Assembly (NCBI GenBank): GCA_030694265.1
Contig: JAUXYP010000001.1
Coordinates: 186,001-250,000 of the forward strand
Reading direction: 5' to 3'
DNA: 64,000 nucleotides
DNA from: Sulfuricurvum sp.
Lineage (GTDB): Bacteria > Campylobacterota > Campylobacteria > Campylobacterales > Sulfurimonadaceae
Shown here: in pieces, positions 4,898 through 27,785 of the stretch
Layout of the letters: each line of letters starts with the position of its first letter
Position numbering within the stretch: the first letter of the stretch is position 1
The notes under the pieces: model-generated
The model's database searches: none
What the model was told of the DNA's origin: nothing
What the model saw: only the letters and a program-made list of their open reading frames with translations
Position numbers and translations under genes: made by a program

Positions 4898-7201
4898 TTA
4901 AAAAGGACGGATCATTTGTACTATGTGCCCTGTAGTTTTAGGTACACTTTGTACCTCACTGCTTTCGTAGGATAACGTACCGCTTATCTCGGGCGATTTC
5001 ATCACGATCCCCTGAGGGACTTGCACGGAGTGCAGCTGCACCGCCGTTTGTTTGTAGTTTGGCTCACCCGATTTTGGGCAGAAACTGCTTGTCGTGAGTT
5101 GATTGATCAGTTGGGTATTAAAGTGAAATGGGACGAATACATTTCCCTCCCGTACCGTCTGTGTGACTCGAACGACGATGTCATCAACACGTCCGCGAGG
5201 GGAGGATAGGGAAAGGCGATCACCGCTTTTGACCTGCAATGCTGAGGCATCAGCAGGGTTGATATCGACCCACGCTTCGGGAGCAAGATCGTTGAGAATA
5301 TCGATATTTCCTGTTTTAGTACGGGTGTGCCACTGCTCTACGGTGCGTCCTGTGTTGAGGATGATGGGAAATTGTTCTCCTGTGGGTTCTTGCAGGGGTA
5401 TCCACTCTAATGGCAACAGTTTGGCTTTGCCATCGTACGTGCGAAAACCGATATCTGGAGTGTAGAGGCGAGGGGAGCCTAATGGGAACTGTTCGTTGCA
5501 CGGCCACTGGATTCCGCCGTGAAGCTCCATCATCTGATAACTCATCCCTGAATAATCGCACAACTGACCGCGGCTGACACGTTTCCACTCTTCAAACGCA
5601 TCGGAGGGGGTTTTCCAGTTGGGATATATCAGCTCTCGTACACCGTCAAAATAACCGCTAAACTCTAGAAAAATATCAAAATCGCTCTTTGCGATGCCCG
5701 GAGGGCTCACCGCTTTAGAAGCACGGTTGCATCGGCGCTCGCTGTTGGTGTAGCTCCCCTCTTTTTCTCCCCACGTACCTGCTGCGAAGATCACATCGGA
5801 GAGCTGTGCCGTATCGGACATAAAGGCATCTTGAACGACCAGCAATTCGAGTTTGGCTAACGCTTTACGAAGTCGGGTCTGATTGACGAAGCTTACCAGC
5901 GGATTGGTCGCTACGACCCAAAGCGCTTTGATCTCGCCGCGTTCGATAGCTTCGATAATCTCGCCGTATTTGTAGCCGCGTTGCGTAGGGATGAGCTCGA
6001 GTGGAACGTTGATGATGTCGGCATACTCTGATGCCGCTTTTTCATCGCCGTAGTTGCGGTATCCCGGCAGGGATGAGGTAAATCCTGTTTCCCGTGTTCC
6101 CATGGCATTGCACTGACCCGTGATCGAAAACGGTGCGGCTCCCGGTCGACCTATTTGACCAGTAAGCAGATGCAAATTGATGATGGCGCTGACGGTGTCC
6201 GTACCCATGTACGATTGATTGACTCCCATCGTCCATGCACTAAGCACTGCCTGAGATGACGCATATGAGCGTGCGATCTCATAGAGGGTTTTGACGTCGA
6301 TACCGGTGATGTTGGCTACTTCTTGTGGAGGGTAGTTTTGGAGGTGTTTGCGTAAATCTCCTAACCCTGTGACGTTGGCTTTGAGATACTCTGCATTTTC
6401 CCATCCCTGCTCGAGGACGATGTAGGCAAGGCCGTTAAAAAGTGCCAAATCAGTGCGCGGTTTGAGGGGGATGAACATATCGGCCATCTGAGCTGTTTTG
6501 GATTTGCGCGGATCAATGACGATGATTTTGGGTTTGTTAGGATTTTTCTCGATGTGGAGTTTCAAAATCGGATGGTTGTCAGAGATATTGGCACCCACCA
6601 AAACGATGACGTTGGCGTGCTGAAAATCCTCATACGATCCTGTAGGGCCATCAGAACCTAATGACTGTTTGTATCCCATAACGGCAGATGCCATACACAG
6701 CGTCGTGTTACCGTCGTAGTTGTTGGTACGCAAACCCAGTTGGACGAGTTTTCCCAGTGTGTAAAACTCTTCGGTGAGCAGTTGTCCTGTTGAGAGGACA
6801 CCGATAGCTGACGAGCCGTGTTTTTCGCTGATTTCTTTGAATTTTTTGGAGACTTGGGTGAATGCATCTTCCCATGAACTGTTTTGCAGCTTTCCATTTT
6901 TTCGAACCATGGGTGATGGGAGGCGATTGGAGGAGGTGATCATCTCGTGTTCACTCAAACCCTTTGGGCACAGTGTGCCCATGTTGACACTGTGGGCAGA
7001 ATTACCCTTGGTATAGACCGCTTTGCCATTTCTGACACCGATATAAAGACCGCATCCCACACCGCAATAACCGCAGGTGGAGAATACCCATTTGTCTGGT
7101 TTTTTGGCATCGCTGATACGCCCGAACATCGGGTCATCGGCTAGGGCGTATTTAGCGGCTTTGATGTCAAGACCTAAAAAGTTTTTGATGGTATTTATCA
7201 T
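4898..7201 (-). CDS. narB: Assimilatory-type molybdopterin nitrate reductase, catalytic subunit (NarB/NasA-like)
   Basis: This 767-residue Mo-bisMGD oxidoreductase should reduce nitrate to nitrite. The N-terminal [4Fe-4S] ligands are C43, C46, C50 and C78. C169, in TLCMASAVMGY, sits where NapA/NasA/NarB enzymes place the cysteine that ligates molybdenum. A C-terminal molydopterin dinucleotide-binding domain includes ILNTGRTVEQWHT. The N-terminus (MINTIKNFLG) has no twin-arginine signal, so the enzyme should be cytoplasmic, unlike periplasmic NapA. It is the last gene of a minus-strand run after the siroheme methyltransferase, nitrite reductase and DmsBC-like subunit, which identifies the role as nitrate assimilation. 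A clear GGAG ribosome site precedes the start at 7201. A formate dehydrogenase-like reductase is the main alternative, but the neighbours argue against it. Confidence 0.88.
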   Translation of the reverse strand: MINTIKNFLGLDIKAAKYALADDPMFGRISDAKKPDKWVFSTCGYCGVGCGLYIGVRNGKAVYTKGNSAHSVNMGTLCPKGLSEHEMITSSNRLPSPMVRKNGKLQNSSWEDAFTQVSKKFKEISEKHGSSAIGVLSTGQLLTEEFYTLGKLVQLGLRTNNYDGNTTLCMASAVMGYKQSLGSDGPTGSYEDFQHANVIVLVGANISDNHPILKLHIEKNPNKPKIIVIDPRKSKTAQMADMFIPLKPRTDLALFNGLAYIVLEQGWENAEYLKANVTGLGDLRKHLQNYPPQEVANITGIDVKTLYEIARSYASSQAVLSAWTMGVNQSYMGTDTVSAIINLHLLTGQIGRPGAAPFSITGQCNAMGTRETGFTSSLPGYRNYGDEKAASEYADIINVPLELIPTQRGYKYGEIIEAIERGEIKALWVVATNPLVSFVNQTRLRKALAKLELLVVQDAFMSDTAQLSDVIFAAGTWGEKEGSYTNSERRCNRASKAVSPPGIAKSDFDIFLEFSGYFDGVRELIYPNWKTPSDAFEEWKRVSRGQLCDYSGMSYQMMELHGGIQWPCNEQFPLGSPRLYTPDIGFRTYDGKAKLLPLEWIPLQEPTGEQFPIILNTGRTVEQWHTRTKTGNIDILNDLAPEAWVDINPADASALQVKSGDRLSLSSPRGRVDDIVVRVTQTVREGNVFVPFHFNTQLINQLTTSSFCPKSGEPNYKQTAVQLHSVQVPQGIVMKSPEISGTLSYESSEVQSVPKTTGHIVQMIRPF

Positions 7202-7210
7202 GATAGTCTC

Positions 7211-8782
7211 CTAGTGTCTCTGTGCGCCGACGAAAAAACCGCCTGCCATTTGCAGAGGTACCGTTGTCGTATAGAATAAAAATCGATCCATCAGCTCGCT
7301 TAGCACGATCAAGACAAATCCAAGAACGAGAGTGATAATTGCAAGGCTAGTTAATCCTGATGCAATCAGCAAGGTTGAAAGAAGTGGTAACGCTAACGCT
7401 CCAAGACCCAAAGTAATCCAGCGCAGGGTATGAAGTGTAGCAAATAACTCGCGATAAAGTCGGAGTGTTTTCTCCAACTGCGGTGTAGAGGAAGCTTTCA
7501 GTTCATTGTAGGCCCCAAGGGTGAAAAATCCGTGGATAACAGAAAGTATCATGGCACTGCTCAAAAGGGGCGTAGCTGAATCGGTAGTGCCTGAAATAAT
7601 CAATGCCAATGCGACCAAAAACAGTCCGCTGTACGCTGTGGTAAAGAATTTTTGATTGGTAGAAAATCGATCCCACGAAGGACGGGCAGGGATGCGGTAG
7701 ATCATCGCTTGGGCGTGGATGCCGTAGATACCGACCAAGAGCGTTACGAGTTCAAACCCTAAACGAACTGCCGTTGCAATATCGAAAAAGTACAAAGCGA
7801 CGTTGAGTGACATCAATCCTGTAAATGCACCCAAGGCCGCGGCTTCACGACTTAGCCAACTCGTTTTGAGGTTTTTCATCGCTGACAGTGCTTTAAGCGG
7901 CCGTCCCAAATGCAGTGCGGACAAAGGTAATCCCAGTGCGGCAGGGACAAGTGCGAGAAGGGCAAAAATCCATGTGGGTTTAAAAAATCCAAACAGTGAG
8001 AGGATGTCACCGATAAAGAGGGCGCCAAATGCTCCTAGCGACATTTGGGTGAGTACTGTCATAAACACCAGCGGCAGTTCGCCATGTGCGGGTTTGAGAT
8101 GGTGTTCATCGGCTTTTAGCATTTCTAATGGCATATTGTCGGGCAGCGTGAACCTTGTGGTAGAATTGGTGAGGCGTGCATCTGCTAAATGAGGCATATT
8201 GCCTGACGTGTCAATATCGTTTGCCATCCACTCGAGAATATTGACCGCTTCGATCTCAATGGCACCGCTAGGGCACGCTTGAACACATGCTGGGCTTTGG
8301 TCGGCTGCCAGACGTTCGTGGCACATGTGGCATTTGGTGACGATGTGACGCTCTTCGTGGTAGGTCGGAACGCCATACGGGCAATTCCATGTGCAATATT
8401 GGCATCCGATACAGCTGGGATCGTCGTGGAAGACGATACCGTTGTCGAATTTGATATAACTGTTGGTCGGACATCCGATGAGACAGGCGGGATCGACGCA
8501 GTGGTTACAGCTCATGGAGTTAAACAGTAGCAGGGTATCTGGAAAACTTCCCCCCTCCATCTCACCAACACGACGCCATTTTATATCTGCCGGATTGTTG
8601 TTTTGTTCATTGCACGCTACTTCGCAGCAGCGACAGCCGACGCATTTGGTTGCATCGAAGTGGAAGCGGTACTGTTCACCCTCTTGGAGCTTTGGAATAT
8701 CAATGGAGTAATTCCCGCATTGCATCCCTGTATCTGCTTTGTAGCCGATAAATGATTCAAGAGGGGTAGCCGTATCGTTCAT
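7211..8782 (-). CDS. Fused DmsB-DmsC-like subunit: four-cluster ferredoxin domain plus polytopic membrane anchor
   Basis: The 523-residue protein joins two subunits that are separate in DMSO reductase. Residues 1-180 form a DmsB/NrfC-like domain with sixteen cysteines in four groups (C47-C57, C92-C104, C124-C134, C151-C170), enough for four [4Fe-4S] clusters. Residues from about 230 to 520 are strongly hydrophobic, with roughly eight membrane segments resembling the quinol-oxidising DmsC anchor. It lies 9 bases upstream of the nitrate reductase gene and just after the nitrite reductase. The inferred job is to pass electrons from menaquinol to the nitrate reductase, and perhaps to nitrite reductase. 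Neither it nor the reductase has a Tat signal, so the complex should face the cytoplasm. Which partner it serves is inference. Confidence 0.87.
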   Translation of the reverse strand: MNDTATPLESFIGYKADTGMQCGNYSIDIPKLQEGEQYRFHFDATKCVGCRCCEVACNEQNNNPADIKWRRVGEMEGGSFPDTLLLFNSMSCNHCVDPACLIGCPTNSYIKFDNGIVFHDDPSCIGCQYCTWNCPYGVPTYHEERHIVTKCHMCHERLAADQSPACVQACPSGAIEIEAVNILEWMANDIDTSGNMPHLADARLTNSTTRFTLPDNMPLEMLKADEHHLKPAHGELPLVFMTVLTQMSLGAFGALFIGDILSLFGFFKPTWIFALLALVPAALGLPLSALHLGRPLKALSAMKNLKTSWLSREAAALGAFTGLMSLNVALYFFDIATAVRLGFELVTLLVGIYGIHAQAMIYRIPARPSWDRFSTNQKFFTTAYSGLFLVALALIISGTTDSATPLLSSAMILSVIHGFFTLGAYNELKASSTPQLEKTLRLYRELFATLHTLRWITLGLGALALPLLSTLLIASGLTSLAIITLVLGFVLIVLSELMDRFLFYTTTVPLQMAGGFFVGAQRH

Positions 8783-8783
8783 A

Positions 8784-10682
8784 TTATTGTTCGCTACTGA
8801 GTTTTTTCAGCTCGACGACAATCTCAGTAAAAACCACGGATCGTTTGTGAGGGTTTGGCTCTACCATCTTATCGAGTACAGAAGCATAGAGTGAGAGTTC
8901 TGGCTCTTTGTGGCGATAGCTTTTTTTCTCTTCGGCAAGCGGTTCGTCGGTATCGTAAGGGTTAGTACCCGTTACGTTTCGAATGATTTGAGCTCCAAAC
9001 TCGAAAATCTCGTCTTGCTCACGGTGTGAACCGCCTTGTTTTTTGAGGTTAAAGGAGAGCATGGCATCGTGAGTGTTTTGCAAACGCATCAAACGATTCC
9101 AGCGCATCAAAAAACCGATGGCGTGGTTGGTATAGCGTACCTTTAAACGGGCGATGAATTTTTCTAAACTCTCTTTGCCAATACGGTGGTCACGATATTG
9201 GCGCATGAGTTCGGCCACATATTCACGCGCGTGCTCGAGAACGATCCCTTTTAGGAGAAGATGACCTTCACCGCCTTCACCGCTGAGTGTTCCGCCGATG
9301 AAGATGTCAACGCCTAAAACAGTAACACCGTTATGAGGAGTCTTGCATCCTACAAAACCTAAATCTCCTGCACCATGGATACCGCACCCTTTGACACATG
9401 CAGACCAGTAAAAACGTATTTTTGCATCTTGGATAGGAACCTCACGTGCTAAATATTCTCCCATCTCTATGGCATCAGGTTTGTTAGGAATTACCCCAAA
9501 CGGACAGTGCTCTGTCCCTGCACACGCGATGAGGTTCGCCATATACGGTGAGGGACGATTCGGGTATTTAACAAACAGAGGTGATTCTAGTGCAGTTTGT
9601 TCATCCCTAACACCTGTGATGATGAGGTTTTGCTCGATGGTAAAACGTAATGCTCCGTTTTGTGCGGCGGCAACTTCTGCGGCATCGCTCAAATCGCTCC
9701 CACTGAATACACCGCTAGGGACAGCTGCTGTGAGCGCAAACGAACCATCTTTGAGGCCGATTTTACCGTAATGGTCTCCTCCCTCACTGGCACATAGGGT
9801 TTCGCCGCTAGTATGCATTGCAAACCCTAGTTGTACTTCTATGGCATTACGAAACTCGCTCATTCCCACGGCATCTATCAGAAATTTAAGACGGTTTTTG
9901 TTGCGGTTATCACGAAATCCATAGGTTTTAAAGAGACTTGCAACGGCGACAAAGACGGCTTTAGCCTGGGACGGTAAGACAAACATATCCGCATCCTGTG
10001 CCAAAAATCCGACACGCCCTCCTAAATAGAGGTTAAATCCATACACACCGTCTTTTTGAGCAAGAGCAAGGGCAAAATCCTGACCAAAAATATTACAACG
10101 ATTGGAGAGTGAACCGCTGATGCCGATGTTAAATTTGCGCGGTAAGGTAGTAATCCAATCGTCATTTTTCAAAAATACGGCTTGGATATCGTTCATGATC
10201 TCAACACAGGGGATGATATTGTCCATTGCTAATCCATCGAGAGGATCGATGAGGACATTACGAAAATTATCGACACCTGTTTGGTAGCTGGTGAGTCCCA
10301 CGCTCTCTAACAGTGCGAGTGCTTCGGGCAACTCCTCTATGGTGATGTAGCGCAGTTCGATTTGCATGCGTGTGGTAATATCAATGTAATCTTTCCCAAA
10401 GCGTTTTGCGACATCAGCCAGAACTCGTGCTTGGTCAACACTCAACATTCCACCCGCCACGCGAACACGAATCATAAAACGTCCTGGGGTAGCAGGACGA
10501 TCAAAGACACCGAAGCTTTTGAGGACAAAATCTTTGTCTTCTTCGGTGATGGAATCGTACCCTGTTTTAGAATAACCTATCAGTCTTTCCCATGCTTCTT
10601 TGGCACTAAAGGTCTCTTTGATCGTCTCAACTTTATGGCGCTTAGCGCTTCGTGTTTCATTAGCCTGCATAAGCGATGTCAT
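8784..10682 (-). CDS. nirA: Siroheme [4Fe-4S] nitrite reductase (NirA-like)
   Basis: This 632-residue protein belongs to the ferredoxin-type nitrite/sulfite reductase family. Two ferrodoxin-like half-domains (start near residue 62, PATPGRFMIRVR, and again near 270-300) flank siroheme-binding domains. The coupled siroheme/cluster cysteines are C387 and C393 (CAGTEHC) and C429 and C433 (CVKGC), the family pattern. The reaction is six-electron reduction of nitrite to ammonium in the cytoplasm. Sulfite reductase is an alternative on motif grounds alone, but the adjoining nitrate reductase and the absence of sulfate-assimilation genes favour nitrite. The start overlaps the end of the methyltransferase gene by 23 bases; an in-frame ATG four codons in is also possible. 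One base separates its stop from the DmsBC-like gene. Confidence 0.88.
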   Translation of the reverse strand: MTSLMQANETRSAKRHKVETIKETFSAKEAWERLIGYSKTGYDSITEEDKDFVLKSFGVFDRPATPGRFMIRVRVAGGMLSVDQARVLADVAKRFGKDYIDITTRMQIELRYITIEELPEALALLESVGLTSYQTGVDNFRNVLIDPLDGLAMDNIIPCVEIMNDIQAVFLKNDDWITTLPRKFNIGISGSLSNRCNIFGQDFALALAQKDGVYGFNLYLGGRVGFLAQDADMFVLPSQAKAVFVAVASLFKTYGFRDNRNKNRLKFLIDAVGMSEFRNAIEVQLGFAMHTSGETLCASEGGDHYGKIGLKDGSFALTAAVPSGVFSGSDLSDAAEVAAAQNGALRFTIEQNLIITGVRDEQTALESPLFVKYPNRPSPYMANLIACAGTEHCPFGVIPNKPDAIEMGEYLAREVPIQDAKIRFYWSACVKGCGIHGAGDLGFVGCKTPHNGVTVLGVDIFIGGTLSGEGGEGHLLLKGIVLEHAREYVAELMRQYRDHRIGKESLEKFIARLKVRYTNHAIGFLMRWNRLMRLQNTHDAMLSFNLKKQGGSHREQDEIFEFGAQIIRNVTGTNPYDTDEPLAEEKKSYRHKEPELSLYASVLDKMVEPNPHKRSVVFTEIVVELKKLSSEQ

Positions 10683-11439
10683 GGGCGGTCTCCTTGATCT
10701 CGTGGATGTATTTTGGTAGTTGTGACTCGAGTGTTACCACATCGCCAAAAATCATAATGGCGGGTTTGGGTGCTTTTTTGGCGGCACGCACAAGGTCGCC
10801 CAGTGTCGTAATGATGGTGCTTTGGTTTGCACTGGTTGCATTGGAAACAATGGCGACGCTCAATGCAGGATTGATCCCCTGTTGCAAGGCTTCTGCCGTG
10901 ATTTGTTCTGCACGACTAAGTCCCATCAGGACGATCGTCGTATGGCTCGCCATCCCCAAAAGCGGTATCCAGCTCAAATTCACACGATCGCCTGCCAGAT
11001 GTGCGGATACGACGGACATTCCCGTCGCATAGCCGCGTGCTGTCGGAGCAATACCTGCTGAGAGTGGACCGCTAAGGGCAGAAGAAATACCGGGGATTAC
11101 TTCAGTGTGAATCCCGTGTTCCATGGCATAGATCGCTTCTTCGGTTCCACGTCCAAAGATGTATGGATCGCCGCATTTAAGACGTCCAACACACAATCCC
11201 TGAATCGCATAGGAAGTAATGAGTCCATTAATCTCATCTTGGGTTGAGCTATGACACCCTTTTTCCTTACCGACGAATACTACTTTGGTTGATGTTGGAA
11301 TTAAATCGATTATCTCTTGGGTGAGCAAATGATCGATGAGTGCTACATCGAGTTTTTGGATGGTCTTGAGTGCTTTAAGGGTGAGTAAATCGGCATCACC
11401 GGGTCCACATCCGATCAAGTAAAGAGAGCCATTCATCAT
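10660..11439 (-). CDS. cobA: Uroporphyrinogen-III C-methyltransferase (siroheme synthesis)
   Basis: The 259-residue protein is a tetrapyrrole (corrin/porphyrin) methylase. The N-terminal GCGPGD loop (10-15) and the GDPYIFGRG and VIPGISS motifs mark the SAM-dependent enzyme that makes precorrin-2 from uroporphyrinogen III. It is the first gene of the nitrate assimilation operon and overlaps nirA, consistent with supplying siroheme to that nitrite reductase. Length and motifs fit single-domain CobA/SUMT rather than the trifunctional CysG; the missing dehydrogenase/ferrochelatase activity is encoded divergently at 11553. An AAGGAA ribosome site precedes the ATG. Confidence 0.93.
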   Translation of the reverse strand: MMNGSLYLIGCGPGDADLLTLKALKTIQKLDVALIDHLLTQEIIDLIPTSTKVVFVGKEKGCHSSTQDEINGLITSYAIQGLCVGRLKCGDPYIFGRGTEEAIYAMEHGIHTEVIPGISSALSGPLSAGIAPTARGYATGMSVVSAHLAGDRVNLSWIPLLGMASHTTIVLMGLSRAEQITAEALQQGINPALSVAIVSNATSANQSTIITTLGDLVRAAKKAPKPAIMIFGDVVTLESQLPKYIHEIKETAHDIAYAG

Positions 11440-20065: not shown

Positions 20066-20073
20066 GCTCTTCT
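20056..20073. terminator. Hairpin spanning the convergent ends of tex and the PP2C-kinase gene
   Basis: A perfect 7-base-pair stem (AGAAGAG at 20056-20062, CTCTTCT at 20067-20073) has a four-base loop that contains the tex stop codon. It is symmetric and sits where two convergent genes meet, so it could act in both directions. Neither side is followed by a strong T run, so intrinsic termination is only tentative. Confidence 0.35.
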
Positions 20074-21712
20074 ATTTGGATAATAGTAGAATGAGGGTTA
20101 GGGCCTGCGTCAGCAGTAAGATCAAAAATCCAGTTTTATAAAACGTCAGTGGTGAGCGCTCGATGAGCGGGACGCCCTTGGTAAAAAACGGTTTGACCCG
20201 TTCGGGTGATTTTAGTTCATACAAAAACTCGGAGTAGTGTACGTACCGCTCATCGGGATTAATCGCGATGGCACGCATGATGATCGAATCCAGCCACGCG
20301 GGAATGTTGCTGTTAAGTTTAATGCAGCGTTTTGGACTTTTGAACGTCGGTGTTTGAAACGGCTCAATTTCACCATAAGGAAGTGTTCCCGTGAGTGCCC
20401 AATACAGCGTTATCCCGATAGAAAATATTTCGCTAGATTCATTAATAACCCCGCCCTTAAAACGCTCAGGTGCTAGATAGCTAGGTGTTCCCGCGCGCGA
20501 GTTGAGTGAAAATATCTCGACGATGGAGCCAAAATCGACCATTTTAAAATCCACTCCTGCTTCTCCCACTTTTTTAGTGACAATGATATTTTCCGGCTTG
20601 ATATCTCCGTGTACTAACCCTAACTGCAGTAAGTGAGCCTCAGCATCGTGCAATAATTTTCCAAGCTCAATCGCACTGTCTATGGAGAGAGGACGGTTAA
20701 TCAAAAACTCTCTTAGGTTGATCCCCTCTACGAGTTCCATCATGTAATACCGCATGGTACGATTCTCAGGAACCCATGCGTGACCAAAGGCATTGTGGCT
20801 GATTTGTTTGGCATACCACGCTTCACGGACGAATTCATCGAGAGCTTGCTCATCATCTGCAGCCATCGGAAATTTCATTACAAATATGTCATTGTCTTTT
20901 GAGACTTTCCAGATACGTTTGTGTTCCATCATAGGGCTGATTAGAGTGTATCCGTCGATAATTTCACCCTCATTGAGCGTTTGAGGAATAGGGAGTTGGA
21001 TGTTCTTGATGGCATGGAGCGGATCAAGTGCTTCTATGCGAAAAATCTGAAGACTCATGTCGTCACGATTCTCGTCTTTGGCATTTTGGGCGATGTGCTG
21101 GATGATACTTTTTGCCCCCAAACCTTTTTGTAAGAGCACCGTTAAATCATTTTCTTCGATGAGATTGTAAACACCGTCACTGCAAAGAACAACAGTTTCG
21201 CCGACTGAAATCGGGATGGAGGTAATGATTAATTCTACATTTTCACTTAAACCACACGCTTTGGTTAGGACATGGGACATGTGCTCATCGTCCATCGTAT
21301 GATCGGTGGTGAGCTGTTTGAGCTCACCGTCAAGTGTCAGGAGATAAACACGTGAATCTCCGAGATTGAGGGTATAGAGGGTGTCTCCCTCAATGATTGC
21401 GAGGCAAAGAGTCGTGAGCAGTTCGATACGCTCGTATTGCGTCATTGACTCAGTAAAAAGGAGATTATTGATATGGCGGGTGAATACTTCCATTGTTTTG
21501 GGGACAGTCCATGTTTTGGGTCGCGCTTTGAACTGATCGATGAAAAATTTTACACATTGACGTGCGGCAGTACCGCCTCGGCGTGCGCTTCCGACGCCGT
21601 CACATAAAACACTGACTAATAAGGTGTTGTCGATGATGCTGAATGCACAGGCATCATCCCCTTCATAGTTTGGTTTTGGGAGAATGAATTCGGAAGATTG
21701 AAGTTGTAACAT
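20072..21712 (-). CDS. PP2C phosphatase-Ser/Thr protein kinase fusion with C-terminal membrane anchor
   Basis: The 546-residue protein carries a PP2C-type phosphatase domain (about 1-225; metal-site motifs EGDD at 17-20, CDGVG at 37-41, LGDSR at 117-121, CSDG at 177-180, RDD at 216-218). A Hanks-type kinase domain follows (about 254-510; K280, E297, HGDIKPEN at 368-375, DFG at 393-395, APE at 414-416). A single hydrophobic helix at about 525-545 anchors it with both domains in the cytoplasm. The gene begins one base after the narK stop (TAA then ATG), so the pair is co-translated. Similar fusions occur beside nitrate transporters in other proteobacteria, as I recall; reversible phosphorylation tied to nitrate uptake is the inferred role. 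All catalytic residues look intact. Confidence 0.9.
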   Translation of the reverse strand: MLQLQSSEFILPKPNYEGDDACAFSIIDNTLLVSVLCDGVGSARRGGTAARQCVKFFIDQFKARPKTWTVPKTMEVFTRHINNLLFTESMTQYERIELLTTLCLAIIEGDTLYTLNLGDSRVYLLTLDGELKQLTTDHTMDDEHMSHVLTKACGLSENVELIITSIPISVGETVVLCSDGVYNLIEENDLTVLLQKGLGAKSIIQHIAQNAKDENRDDMSLQIFRIEALDPLHAIKNIQLPIPQTLNEGEIIDGYTLISPMMEHKRIWKVSKDNDIFVMKFPMAADDEQALDEFVREAWYAKQISHNAFGHAWVPENRTMRYYMMELVEGINLREFLINRPLSIDSAIELGKLLHDAEAHLLQLGLVHGDIKPENIIVTKKVGEAGVDFKMVDFGSIVEIFSLNSRAGTPSYLAPERFKGGVINESSEIFSIGITLYWALTGTLPYGEIEPFQTPTFKSPKRCIKLNSNIPAWLDSIIMRAIAINPDERYVHYSEFLYELKSPERVKPFFTKGVPLIERSPLTFYKTGFLILLLTQALTLILLLSK

Positions 21713-22990
21713 TTATATTTTTGCTCCTGATGCTGCGCCCCATGTGGTTCTCCAGCGTGTTTTAACCAAACTGATTCCTGAAAGTGCGACGATAACCATG
21801 GTGGCAAAAATCAAAAATCCGGCAGTATAGCCATCAAAGGCTCCCTGTGACCATCCGAAAGTTTTGATTAGAGCCGTACCGCCCAATCCGCCTGCCATAC
21901 CGATGAGACCCGTCATAACGCCGATGTCTTTGCCAAAACGTTGTGGGACGAGCTGGAAGACCGCACCGTTTGCCATCCCGAGGTTTGCCATGATCAAAAA
22001 CATCACCAAAATAGCGGCCCAAAACGGTAGTGTGATAAAGGCACTAAGGCTGGAGAATACGACGATCATGCTGAAAAAGACGTAAAGTGATTTGACACCG
22101 CCCATCTTATCCGCAACTGCACCGCCAACAGGACGCAGCATCGCCCCTGCAAAGATACACAGTGCACCGAAATATCCCGCGACAACTTTGACATTGCTCT
22201 CGTTCATAATATCACTTCCAAACGCAGACATATCGGCTTGGTAGGTGTTCATCAAATAGACTTTCATGTAGTTCGCAAATCCTATGAATCCACCGAAAGA
22301 GACCGCATAAAAGAGGTTGAACCACCATGTGTCACGATCACGCATAAGTTTGAGATAATCGCCCAATTTTTTAGGATTTGGTTTGTACACGTTAGCAGGA
22401 GCATCTTTTGCCATAAACATATACGCAATGAGGACAATCAATGAAAGAACGCCGCCAACCAAGAAAACAGAAGGCCATCCCCATAGCTCCGCGATCTTAG
22501 GAGCAAAGAGAAAGTCAATCACCACACCGATGTTACCGGCACCCGCGATACCTAATACCGTCCCCTGAAGGCGTGGCGGATACCATTGACCCGCTTGTGG
22601 GAGAGCAACGGCAAACGAGGCACCGGCGAAACCAAGACCTAACGCTACAACTAACAGCTGATTGTAGGTAATCGACTCAGCACTCATGTACGCCAAAAAG
22701 AGGGTGGCTATAACAATAATCTGTGCTGCGACAGCTGTTTTTTTAGGTCCGATTTTATCCACAAAAATCCCTAATACTAAGCGTAAGATGGCTCCGGCCA
22801 AAACTGGGATAGCAAGAAGTGTAGCTTGCTGATCGTCACTCATGGTAAATCCGCGAGAGGAGAGGCTCTCTCCAATCTCAGTCGCCAGAGGTCCCAGCAT
22901 CGTCCACATCATAAAACTAAAGTCAAAATACAAGAAGGCGGAAAACAGCGTCGGCCAGTGTCCCTCTTTTTTTAAATCGGCGAATTTCAT
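21713..22990 (-). CDS. narK: NarK/NasA-type MFS nitrate/nitrite transporter
   Basis: The 425-residue protein has about twelve membrane helices and the nitrate/nitrite-porter hallmarks: the first helix with FSFMMWTMLGPLA, a GAGNIGVVIDF segment, the loop PVGGAVADKMGG and a glycine-rich GMAGGLGGT stretch. It should import nitrate (proton symport or nitrite antiport) for the assimilatory reductase encoded at 4898. An AGGAG site precedes the ATG. It is translationally adjacent to the PP2C-kinase fusion. Length fits the single-unit NarK class, not the NarK1-NarK2 fusion. Confidence 0.92.
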   Translation of the reverse strand: MKFADLKKEGHWPTLFSAFLYFDFSFMMWTMLGPLATEIGESLSSRGFTMSDDQQATLLAIPVLAGAILRLVLGIFVDKIGPKKTAVAAQIIVIATLFLAYMSAESITYNQLLVVALGLGFAGASFAVALPQAGQWYPPRLQGTVLGIAGAGNIGVVIDFLFAPKIAELWGWPSVFLVGGVLSLIVLIAYMFMAKDAPANVYKPNPKKLGDYLKLMRDRDTWWFNLFYAVSFGGFIGFANYMKVYLMNTYQADMSAFGSDIMNESNVKVVAGYFGALCIFAGAMLRPVGGAVADKMGGVKSLYVFFSMIVVFSSLSAFITLPFWAAILVMFLIMANLGMANGAVFQLVPQRFGKDIGVMTGLIGMAGGLGGTALIKTFGWSQGAFDGYTAGFLIFATMVIVALSGISLVKTRWRTTWGAASGAKI

Positions 22991-23466: not shown

Positions 23467-24408
23467 TTATTCTTCGGTATTAATAGTAAATACTTGATTC
23501 TTACTTTTATTTTTAGCTTCGTAAAGTGCTCTGTCAGCTCTTCGTAAAGAGGTTTCGAACTCTTTACCGGTGAGCTTGGACACACCAATACTCACCGTAA
23601 TATGTATTTCATTATTTTCATAAAAAAGTCGTGCTTTGTCGATGTTTTCACGGATTTTTTCGGCGATGGATTGAGCCACATTCAGCGTAGAACGATTCAG
23701 GACTATAATAAATTCATCTCCTCCAAAACGATAGGCTTTATCGCTGCTTCGAATCAAAGAAGCTATCATTCGTGCTACAAAGACGAGGGTCTTGTCTCCG
23801 GCTAAATGCGAATTTGTATCATTGATGGCTTTGAAATTATCCATGTCTATCATGAGCAAATAGCACTCTGGAACACCGTTGTTTTGTAAATTTTCTGTAA
23901 TGGATACCAAATCTTTGAACAGTTCTTTACGATTGTAAAACTTTGTGAGAGGATCGATTCGGTTCTCTTCGGTGAGGTGGTCAATGCGACTTGTCAGATT
24001 CTTGATTTGATCGTGTGCTTTGAGCAGTGCGCTAGACATGTCTGCATCCAACTGGGCGAGGTTTTCAACAATTTTGATACAATTATTGCTGAGATAATCG
24101 TCAGTGTAGCCATGAGAGGGTACCAAACGTTGGGTATGTTCATGCATTACTTTACTGATTTCTTGATTGCTTTGCATAAATGATTCAAGTGCTAATTGGG
24201 CAATTTCCAGATATTTGGTCACATCATTGGAAATTGTTTCTTGGAAGTGTGTTTCATGTCTCAGTTCATCAGAGGCTTGATTCTCAAGCAACTCGTTAAA
24301 TTCACTTTGATAGTGATTGGGTAGCGGAGAGAGTGCTTTAGAGCGTAAACTAGCCAGTACTTGGTGGCACAGTTCCCAACTCTTAGTGTTAAACTCTTGC
24401 TTATCCAT
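23467..24408 (-). CDS. Soluble diguanylate cyclase (GGDEF)
   Basis: The 313-residue protein has a helical N-terminal half of unknown type (1-135) with a short coiled linker (136-150), then a GGDEF domain. The active loop is GGDEF at 229-233, and the product-inhibition RxxD site (RSSD) is at 220-223. DPLTKFYNRKEL marks the domain start. It should make c-di-GMP and be feedback inhibited. No membrane segment is seen, so the input is cytoplasmic. It stands 53 bases from the DTW-protein gene on the same strand. Confidence 0.92.
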   Translation of the reverse strand: MDKQEFNTKSWELCHQVLASLRSKALSPLPNHYQSEFNELLENQASDELRHETHFQETISNDVTKYLEIAQLALESFMQSNQEISKVMHEHTQRLVPSHGYTDDYLSNNCIKIVENLAQLDADMSSALLKAHDQIKNLTSRIDHLTEENRIDPLTKFYNRKELFKDLVSITENLQNNGVPECYLLMIDMDNFKAINDTNSHLAGDKTLVFVARMIASLIRSSDKAYRFGGDEFIIVLNRSTLNVAQSIAEKIRENIDKARLFYENNEIHITVSIGVSKLTGKEFETSLRRADRALYEAKNKSKNQVFTINTEE

Positions 24409-25163: not shown

Positions 25164-26447
25164 TTACTCTTTTGTTTTTTCCACTTCCATGATTTTATTT
25201 CGGCCAAGACGTTTGGCATCATACAATGCGACATCCGAACATTTAAGTACTTCTTGAACATTTGTTGCCTGTTTATGGTCGGGATGATAGAGTCCGCCGC
25301 TTATGGTTAAGTGTATGGTGTACTCATTATGAGAAAAAAGATGTTCTTGAATTTTAAGGCGTATTTTATCGGTTCTATTGAGAGCTTCTTCTTGCGTAAT
25401 ACGGTTGAATAAAATAACAAACTCTTCACCCCCTGAACGGTAAACACTGTCTTCTTCACGTACATTATCGGTGAGTATTTTAGCTATTTCACGTAAAACA
25501 AAATCCCCTGCATCATGGCCGTAATCATCATTGATTTTTTTGAACCAATCGATATCGAGTATTGCTACGGCAAATGGAGCATGGTGCTCTTGATGATGGA
25601 TCAGGAGGCGTTCAAGATCCTTTTCTAAATTTAAGCGATTTTTGAGTCCTGTGAGGGGGTCGTGAGATGCCATATGCAAAAGTTTTAGATTGGCCTGCTC
25701 AAGGCTAAGTGTTCGAATCTTAACTTGTTGTTTGAGGTTTTTCTGATTCCACGATACTTCTTCAAAAAGCTTTTGGATATTATGTGTTATGGGTTGAAAA
25801 ATAAAGATCATTTCAAGCAGTAACGCGAAGAGAATCAAAATCCAAGCGGTCATTGCGATATTACGTATGATCCCAATATTTTCTTCCCCTTCTTTTTGAT
25901 ACTGCAAGACAGCATCCATAAGATCAGGTAATAATGTATTTGAAAGTGAAAGTATCTGAGGCAACAGCTCTAACGCTTCAGATTTTGACGTTGATTGTAA
26001 TAGTTTTTCATTTAATAGAAGGTAGGTATCAACTCTGCGTTTAAGATTGGTGTCGCCAAAATAATATTCTCGTATCGGCTGTGAAAGTTCCACATGTCTC
26101 GAGTTATCTAAATTTCCTGACGAAAGGGCATTATTATTGGAACGCATTTGATGCATTGCCGTTTGAAGGGTTGATATAAATTCATCATGTTGAATGTTAG
26201 AAAGATTTTTGGAGTCATAAGTTATCAGATAATATTGCTGTGCCAAGGAGGCTATACGTTGGGAGAGCATTCTCTGTTTTCCGGAGAGATTGATAATATA
26301 AGCGGTTGATTCACTGGATTTAAGCCCTATATAAAGAGAAAAGAATGCCACGGTTGCAAGAAGAGCGATGATCAACACGGCGACTCTATTTTGTTTTGTA
26401 AACTTGTGAGAAAGTGACTCTTGCTGTATCGATTCAGACATTTTCAA
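25164..26447 (-). CDS. Membrane diguanylate cyclase with PilJ-type (type IV pili methyl-accepting) sensor
   Basis: The 427-residue protein has two membrane helices (about 22-42 and 195-218) bounding a periplasmic helical sensor. That region contains INLSGKQRMLSQRIASLAQQY, typical of the PilJ/NarX-like four-helix sensor. A coiled linker leads to a GGDEF domain with GGEEF at 339-343 and an RxxD inhibition site at 330-333. It should synthesise c-di-GMP in response to a periplasmic ligand. The sensor family includes nitrate/nitrite sensors, but no ligand can be claimed here. It is 75 bases from the next cyclase gene upstream on the strand. Confidence 0.9.
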   Translation of the reverse strand: MKMSESIQQESLSHKFTKQNRVAVLIIALLATVAFFSLYIGLKSSESTAYIINLSGKQRMLSQRIASLAQQYYLITYDSKNLSNIQHDEFISTLQTAMHQMRSNNNALSSGNLDNSRHVELSQPIREYYFGDTNLKRRVDTYLLLNEKLLQSTSKSEALELLPQILSLSNTLLPDLMDAVLQYQKEGEENIGIIRNIAMTAWILILFALLLEMIFIFQPITHNIQKLFEEVSWNQKNLKQQVKIRTLSLEQANLKLLHMASHDPLTGLKNRLNLEKDLERLLIHHQEHHAPFAVAILDIDWFKKINDDYGHDAGDFVLREIAKILTDNVREEDSVYRSGGEEFVILFNRITQEEALNRTDKIRLKIQEHLFSHNEYTIHLTISGGLYHPDHKQATNVQEVLKCSDVALYDAKRLGRNKIMEVEKTKE

Positions 26448-26522: not shown

Positions 26523-27785
26523 CTAGAGAATGATGATACGGTTTCTACCTTCATTTTTTGCTTTATACAAGGCCATGTCTGCCGATGCAATGAGATTTTC
26601 ACTCTTGTTTTTTTCATTTGGAATAATAGATGAAATCCCGTAACTCATGGTAATTTCTCCTACTTTTCCCCAGTTAGAATCAAAGTTATCAAAATTTTTA
26701 AGATTATTTTGGATTTTAATACACAACTCTTTGGCATCATTAGTATTCGTATCATACAAAATGATTACAAACTCTTCACCGCCATATCTGGCGATGAAAT
26801 CACTGCTTCTGTTTAGCGAATTTTTCATGATAGTAGAAAGCTCTTTAAGTACATTGTCTCCTGCTGTATGCCCGTGAGTATCATTTATCTGTTTAAAGTG
26901 ATCGATGTCACATATAATTACAGAAATTTCAATGCGGTTACGCTGTGCAAGCTGGTATATCTCATTAAAATAGTTTTCAAACGCGCGTCTATTGGACAAT
27001 TGTGTTAGTGGATCGGTGAGGGTTAATTCTTTTAATTCTCGATTTGCATTTTGGAGTTCTTGAGTTCTTTCCTGAATTTTTAGTTCCAAAGAGTGATTGA
27101 TACTATCGAGTATGGCGGAGTGAGTATGTATTTTTTCAACCATGGTTATGATCGCATTGTGAATGATCCCGACTTCATCGGTTCGGGGTGATTGTTGCAT
27201 TGGGAAATTATTGAGAGCAGGATCGTATTGTAAAACATTACGGGTGAGTTCTTCTAAAAATCGAAATTCTCGCTTGAGAAAAATAAGAAATAATGCAAGC
27301 AGCACAAGGGTAATACTAAAAATCTTATAGGTGGTTATTTGATTCTTTTTTAACATCATTTGATATTCATGGTCATCAAAATGGGCATTTGCCGTTGCAA
27401 GTATCTCACCGGTGATGGGATCGATGATTGATTTAGTGGAGGAATCGATTGCGCAGCAGTTTTTGTTCATTATTTTATTGGGATCTTTAAAATAACGGTA
27501 AATGGTCTTTCCATCTGATGCCGTTAATATAAGCCCTTCCATGTCGCTATTTTGGTTAACGATTTGATCTAGGTATTCTTTATTGGCATCGTTGAGACCC
27601 AAGGATAAATTGAGGCCAAGAACAGGAGCAATAGTGTTAAGTAATAAGGTATTTTTGTCTTTTTTAGACGAGAGGAATTGTTCGCTGATGTGCTGTGTGA
27701 TCTCATAGCGCTGCAAACCGACCAAAAACAGCGTAAAAAAGATAACACTGAAAATAATTTTAATTTCTATGCGGATAGTGCCCAT
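26523..27785 (-). CDS. YfiN/TpbB-like membrane diguanylate cyclase
   Basis: The 420-residue protein has an N-terminal helix (about 7-24), a periplasmic domain of some 125 residues, a second helix (about 153-170), a HAMP-like and coiled region, and a GGDEF domain. The active loop is GGEEF at 335-339 and the RxxD site (RSSD) is at 326-329. Length and layout match YfiN, whose periplasmic domain is repressed by YfiR. The YfiR-like gene lies directly upstream with its stop overlapping this start by one base (TAATG), a strong hint of a functional pair. The cyclase assignment is firm; the YfiR link is inference from order and layout. Confidence 0.9.
   Translation of the reverse strand: MGTIRIEIKIIFSVIFFTLFLVGLQRYEITQHISEQFLSSKKDKNTLLLNTIAPVLGLNLSLGLNDANKEYLDQIVNQNSDMEGLILTASDGKTIYRYFKDPNKIMNKNCCAIDSSTKSIIDPITGEILATANAHFDDHEYQMMLKKNQITTYKIFSITLVLLALFLIFLKREFRFLEELTRNVLQYDPALNNFPMQQSPRTDEVGIIHNAIITMVEKIHTHSAILDSINHSLELKIQERTQELQNANRELKELTLTDPLTQLSNRRAFENYFNEIYQLAQRNRIEISVIICDIDHFKQINDTHGHTAGDNVLKELSTIMKNSLNRSSDFIARYGGEEFVIILYDTNTNDAKELCIKIQNNLKNFDNFDSNWGKVGEITMSYGISSIIPNEKNKSENLIASADMALYKAKNEGRNRIIIL

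Follow-up and report, generated by a model that had tools for sequence, protein, structure and literature searches.

The window, that is, the whole 64,000-nucleotide stretch of Sulfuricurvum sp. DNA that was analysed, carries on its reverse strand a gene for a NarK/NasA-type importer and, immediately 3' of it, a gene for a fusion protein in which a PP2C phosphatase domain, a Hanks-type kinase domain and one membrane helix are joined (Table 1). A sequence-only reading of the same DNA had described phosphatase, kinase and membrane anchor in one chain, both enzymes apparently active, with an ATG directly behind the narK stop. Pfam, the catalytic residues and an AlphaFold2 model agree with this anatomy and, as far as residues can indicate it, with the apparent activity; both open reading frames were confirmed, and the junction reads ATA TAA ATG, stop then start, with 0 nt between.

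Table 1. Features of the window discussed in the text (positions in the window)
Feature	Position	Strand	Basis
Molybdopterin nitrate reductase, NasC-like, assimilatory cluster	4898..7201	-	
4Fe-4S / DmsC-like membrane protein in one chain	7211..8782	-	
NirA-like siroheme nitrite reductase	8784..10682	-	
CobA-like tetrapyrrole methyltransferase (siroheme)	10660..11439	-	
PP2C phosphatase + Hanks-type kinase + one C-terminal membrane helix, 546 aa	20072..21712	-	ORF, Pfam, AlphaFold2
Juxtamembrane motif PLIERSPLTF + C-terminal membrane helix (residues 521-545)	20078..20170	-	Alignment, AlphaFold2
Hanks kinase domain, residues about 253-502, without Gly-rich loop	20207..20956	-	Pfam, model, alignment
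Phosphatase domain of PP2C type with complete metal-binding Asp, residues about 1-228	21029..21712	-	Pfam, model, residue alignment
NarK/NasA-type MFS nitrate/nitrite importer, 425 aa, immediately 5' of kinase gene	21713..22990	-	ORF, Pfam, TIGR00886
AGGAG, possible ribosome-binding site of kinase gene, within narK 3' end	21724..21728	-	Sequence
Candidate phosphosite Thr415-Thr416 in NarK C-tail RWRTTWG	21743..21748	-	

The kinase-phosphatase protein and its neighbours

In the fusion protein Pfam PP2C_2 matches residues 19-189 (3e-17) and Pkinase (PF00069) residues 271-490 (5e-22, 79 bits against a cut-off of 31.7). The PP2C catalytic residues are all present (D20, D38/G39, D119, D179 and D217), and the metal-binding Asp residues together with the PP2C fold place the protein in the PP2C/PPM family. 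The kinase residues are complete as well (K280, E297, H368-x-D370, N375, D393-F-G, E416 of APE and R489), which gives the Hanks hallmarks of catalytic Lys, helix-C Glu, HxDxKPEN, DFG, APE and late Arg, and in an alignment of 194 relatives the catalytic residues of both domains are 98-100% conserved. The AlphaFold2 model (mean pLDDT 83) contains PP2C and kinase folds and the C-terminal helix; with Foldseek its kinase part matches PknB/PknA and its phosphatase part PstP/tPphA/Stp. The juxtamembrane motif is conserved, with a family consensus of PLIERxPLxFW. No PASTA domains were found in the protein, whose chain stops after the one helix and which reaches 121 bits with the PknB/PASTA model NF033483, far under its cut-off of 450, and no sensor domain appears in its Pfam and AlphaFold2 anatomy. 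By Pfam, the host genome (2.15 Mb in 23 contigs) encodes three Hanks kinases and a single PP2C_2 domain, that of the fusion protein.

The glycine-rich ATP loop (GxGxxG) was not found in the window protein nor in the relatives inspected, and the Pkinase alignment begins at profile position 21, so kinase activity is not assured. If the missing loop meant an inactive kinase domain, the protein would act chiefly as a phosphatase or serve the importer as a scaffold; this is scarcely credible, however, as K280, E297, D370, N375 and D393 are 99-100% conserved among the 194 relatives, unlike in typical pseudokinases.

The importer matches Pfam MFS_1 (4.6e-39) and scores 249 bits with the NarK model TIGR00886, under the 312-bit cut-off; judged by its sequence it is a divergent, NasA-like relative, and in an alignment it retains both of the arginines that we take to be the substrate arginines of E. 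coli NarK. No terminator-like site was found between narK and the kinase gene, and AGGAG lies 11 nt 5' of the kinase ATG, inside narK. The two genes had also been called co-translated, of which a part stands: the operon arrangement is kept within the genus and AGGAG is present, whereas the zero gap is not kept, the distance ranging from 2 to 127 nt. We infer co-translation from these features.

An assimilatory nitrate cluster (nasC, FeS-DmsC, nirA and cobA; 4898-11439) is located about 9-16 kb from the kinase locus. Its FeS-DmsC-like protein is likely, from its inferred role, the electron donor to the nitrate reductase; this chain recurs between NirA and NasC with the assimilatory cluster across the phylum, which suggests a quinol-linked assimilatory nitrate reductase. 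Near narK, a run of diguanylate cyclases (23467-24408 and 26523-27785) includes a PilJ-type sensor domain fused to GGDEF (25164-26447, reverse strand), and "nitrate- and nitrite-sensing" or PilJ-type proteins flank the kinase also at two other loci, L079 and L077.

Distribution of the kinase among importers and reductases

Among 397 Campylobacterota genomes a close NarK is found in 72 and a close kinase in 71, and all 71 coincide, that is, every genome with an intact close NarK has the kinase (71/71). Fisher's test for this co-occurrence gives 1.5e-78, although the genomes are related, so that neither this value nor the other survey counts stand for independent events. The sole close NarK without a kinase, in G327, is truncated and has two stops. 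At that locus (L057, 9702-10409) the broken narK and the missing kinase look like two parts lost together, and a 545-aa open reading frame nearby, considered as a diverged kinase, is a cytochrome oxidase subunit. G307 was likewise considered as a kinase loss and rejected: its PP2C and kinase domains are intact and narK is intact alongside, and one frame change in the assembled sequence (L056, about 8997-10800), after the kinase domain, removes the membrane helix. The gap between narK and the kinase gene is 60 nt or less in 28/70 genomes and 200 nt or less in 51/70. In 15/70 other genes part the two by 0.9-16 kb and the kinase is still kept, so the link outlives gene separation. Chance adjacency or hitch-hiking is rejected by this retention and by the 71/71 co-occurrence.

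A divergent kinase clade (27-30% identical) occurs in 13 Campylobacterota genomes with no narK adjoining. In all 11 of its loci that were fetched the neighbour is an FNT-family gene, seven by Pfam and the rest by similarity, and cyanase is frequent in these loci, as are nirBD or nirA. The repeated presence of cyanase (cynS) next to FNT-kinase pairs (L059-L069, L076, L237, L249 and others) suggests cyanate as a possible second substrate of the kinase-paired FNT besides nitrite; among PDB structures one such FNT (L059, 10364-11197, reverse strand) is closer to Chlamydomonas LCIA than to either FocA or NirC. In Pseudomonadota both NarK and FNT arrangements are present, on plasmids and chromosomes. 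These include a Methylocystis locus (nirB-nirD-nasC-MFS-kinase), a Pseudomonas fluorescens locus (NarK-kinase-nirB-nasC-cobA), the NarK-kinase arrangement in P. brenneri and others, FNT-kinase pairs in Azospirillum, Acinetobacter and Ideonella, and A. thermophilum, in which NarK and FNT both flank the kinase. PA1782 presumably adjoins nasA (PA1783). The pattern scan of genome contigs served for neighbours only and not for counts, about 27/80 among the matches listed being full-length relatives and the rest ordinary kinases. Two Acidithiobacillus copies of the kinase (L078 and L104) follow glnT/glxBCD-like/folD genes with no importer in view. An importer-kinase fusion in one open reading frame ("Rosetta stone") was looked for and none was found.

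The gammaproteobacterial survey comprised 258 genomes, 88 of them with the kinase, and 1.5 kb was taken as the threshold of adjacency. The kinase lies within this distance of 63/71 strong, assimilatory-type NarK genes and of 20/23 strong matches of one FNT subfamily, and near none of the weak, more distant matches of either family (0/10 for NarK-like and 0/11 for FNT genes), which rejects a pairing with any NarK or any FNT. Eight NarK genes are exceptions, of which two are at a contig end (G527 and G597), two are split over contigs (G494 and G432), one has the kinase 5.3 kb away (G653) and three truly have no adjacent kinase (G566, G616 and G474). Seen from the kinase, 69 of 100 places adjoin NarK, 20 adjoin FNT, 2 have NarK farther off in the locus and 9 show neither importer in the stretch (three at a contig end, two next to nirB/nasC and four alone). 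Among the genomes with copies lacking an importer neighbour (L212, L243, L267 and L276), two also hold a NarK-paired kinase and one an FNT-paired kinase. In 85/89 paired cases the importer is directly upstream of the kinase on the same strand, with a median gap of 59 nt. In a FastTree of 194 kinases, 179 of them with a NarK or FNT label, one change separates the two labels, and in the 16 genomes that have both kinds each kinase adjoins its own importer.

The link of kinase and transporter and the similar neighbours in other bacteria, both put forward in the earlier reading, are strongly supported and general: the pairing was seen in alpha-, beta- and gammaproteobacteria, and a survey of the kind then suggested held in both Campylobacterota (71/71) and Gammaproteobacteria (63/71). 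Loss of the pair from relatives with intact nitrate uptake, named as a possible refutation, was not observed, since an intact close NarK in Campylobacterota always comes with the kinase and the kinase-less relatives with nirA have no close NarK either.

These relatives came from a search of Campylobacterota for NirA, which gave 11 genomes with a strong nirA and neither the NarK-type nor the FNT-type kinase (G302, G238, G306, G248, G198, G396, G334, G176, G044, G271 and G223). Close NarK is absent from all 11, and a distant NarK-like gene (33%) is all that G306 and G248 have; in G306 such genes adjoin a large NarG-type molybdopterin reductase, with no kinase there. An ABC permease adjoining nirA was confirmed by Pfam in 4/11 (G396, G044, G271 and G223), in G396 with an NrtA-like binding protein and an ATPase, and from its sequence G176 likely has one beside nirA too. 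Because the kinase-less nirA genomes have no close NarK and several have an ABC importer instead, the kinase tracks the importer class, not the reductase, and the possibility that it follows the nitrite reductase was rejected.

The same genomes weigh on two other candidate substrates. The target might be a reductase of the same regulon (assimilatory nitrate or nitrite reductase), as nirBD, nasC or nirA is often in the same locus and ammonium inhibits the cyanobacterial nitrate reductase through PII (PMC4390861), but the absence of the kinase from the 11 genomes with a strong nirA match, together with the many FNT-paired loci with no reductase within 6 kb, makes this very unlikely. To PII/GlnB or another general nitrogen regulator as substrate, with narK linked by co-expression only, we give equally little credence, although the host genome has two PII genes and the PP2C PphA dephosphorylates PII in Synechocystis (PMC6213207). 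In that case the kinase should persist in the nirA-positive relatives without a close NarK, which it does not, and the split of the kinases into NarK and FNT clades would be left unexplained. Of the earlier suggestion that NarK or a nitrogen regulator is phosphorylated, the comparison therefore favours the transporter and speaks against a general nitrogen regulator, since genomes that keep the reductase but change the importer class lack the kinase.

The importer as possible substrate

The fusion protein is probably a membrane-tethered write/erase switch that acts on the adjoining importer, as its sequence and gene context suggest; a local importer switch is the best reading because one tethered chain can both add and remove phosphate and is made with the importer. 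The narK operon would supply the protein, which the predicted C-terminal helix would anchor in the inner membrane. Its kinase domain would phosphorylate Ser/Thr on the cytoplasmic face of NarK, with Thr415/Thr416 as candidates, and its own PP2C domain would take the phosphate off again. An internal nitrogen or nitrite signal may set the balance of the two activities; as an external sensor domain is lacking, the signal has to arise in the cytosol or reach the protein via the transporter. By analogy to plant NRT2.1, from which the direction is borrowed, phosphorylation would shut the importer once the cell has enough ammonium or nitrite, and dephosphorylation would turn it on. The sister kinase clade may control FNT-type channels for nitrite, and perhaps cyanate, in the same way.

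Adjacency to a NarK- or FNT-type importer, expected of an importer-dedicated switch, was found across lineages. Counted against it are the few kinase copies that stand alone or beside glnT/glxBCD and the NarK genes without an adjacent kinase, as are the apparent lack of the glycine-rich loop and of a tail motif common to the paired importers. Coupling to the same importer subfamilies is predicted also if the importer is the sensor, its conformation or flux controlling a kinase/phosphatase whose target is a nitrogen regulator or enzyme in the cytosol, and a kinase without a sensor domain could receive its signal in this way; nevertheless, no third partner is conserved beyond the reductases (nirA and nirBD), which vary and which many paired loci lack, and we regard this arrangement as rather unlikely.

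For phosphorylation of the importer itself, conserved Ser/Thr, counted among kinase-paired importers, are suggested as candidate sites. In 50 kinase-paired class A NarKs Thr415 is 94% and Thr416 100% conserved, and the RWRTTWG tail lies outside the region of the window NarK that aligns with E. coli NarK. In class B NarK the conserved residues are of the S202/T203/T216/T217 type and lie between the two halves of the protein; in the kinase-paired FNT they are S24/T28 and T259/T263 near its ends. The conserved Ser/Thr differ between the two NarK classes and FNT; no phosphosite or tail motif shared across the paired importers was found, and conservation of the candidate sites may reflect transport instead.

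Beyond the window, the fusion might be a general post-translational gate of secondary and channel-type nitrate/nitrite (perhaps cyanate) importers in Campylobacterota and Pseudomonadota, with a PII-like role, two lineages for two unrelated folds, and a counterpart in the plant NRT2.1/PP2C switch, a wider proposal in which our doubt slightly outweighs our belief. Control of import is a plausible need because uncontrolled nitrite import is harmful, an FNT nitrite importer harming cells when overproduced (PMC4390861).

Relation to known systems

For most bacterial Ser/Thr kinases many substrates have been proposed, but few are clear. Where a kinase/phosphatase accompanies a single importer in nearly all genomes, and does so in two versions that match two unrelated folds, the hypothesis comes with its substrate named. 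How ammonium shuts off nitrate uptake is already explained for ABC importers, on which PII acts as a brake (PMC6603209), and the cyanobacterial MFS importer NrtP is reported without post-translational regulation, while that of the FNT nitrite importer is left open (PMC4390861). If the proposed switch is true, the fused pair would be the missing brake on nitrate/nitrite import in two major phyla. PA1782 appears among predicted kinases in one paper (PMC8560001), and a PP2C survey notes that Pseudomonadota have PP2C-kinase fusions (PMC12088040). In the open-access literature no paper was found on the importer-kinase pairing or on its absence at ABC loci, though an existing one may be missed. Thus the parts and the fused protein are known from public annotation and the PP2C survey; what is apparently new is that the pairing is systematic, extends to two importer folds and is absent at ABC loci.

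The "Bifunctional protein-serine/threonine kinase/phosphatase" of NCBI (Pseudomonadota) has the same architecture and the same neighbours and belongs to the same family by alignment (26-41% identity), but its name is silent on importer pairing or function. PknB/PrkC/StkP with PstP/Stp, the nearest solved kinase and PP2C folds, likewise form a kinase-phosphatase pair; they are, however, separate proteins, whereas the window protein is fused, has no PASTA domains, carries its helix at the very C-terminus and is linked to an importer. Cyanobacterial PII-NrtABCD is likewise a post-translational ammonium brake on nitrate import (PMC6603209), but PII binds ABC importers, and the fusion kinase is missing from the nirA loci with ABC importers in Campylobacterota. 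In Arabidopsis the PP2C phosphatase CEPH removes the phosphate of Ser501, by which NRT2.1 becomes active (PMC10944928). The plant enzymes are separate proteins, the bacterial switch is proposed from genomic data, and common descent of the switch is not implied. Nevertheless, NRT2.1 is a nitrate importer of the transporter family of NarK with a PP2C as its activator (PMC10944928), so that, if the switch reading holds, the two systems would be similar and bacteria would offer an independent, easily studied parallel to plant NRT2.1/CEPH.
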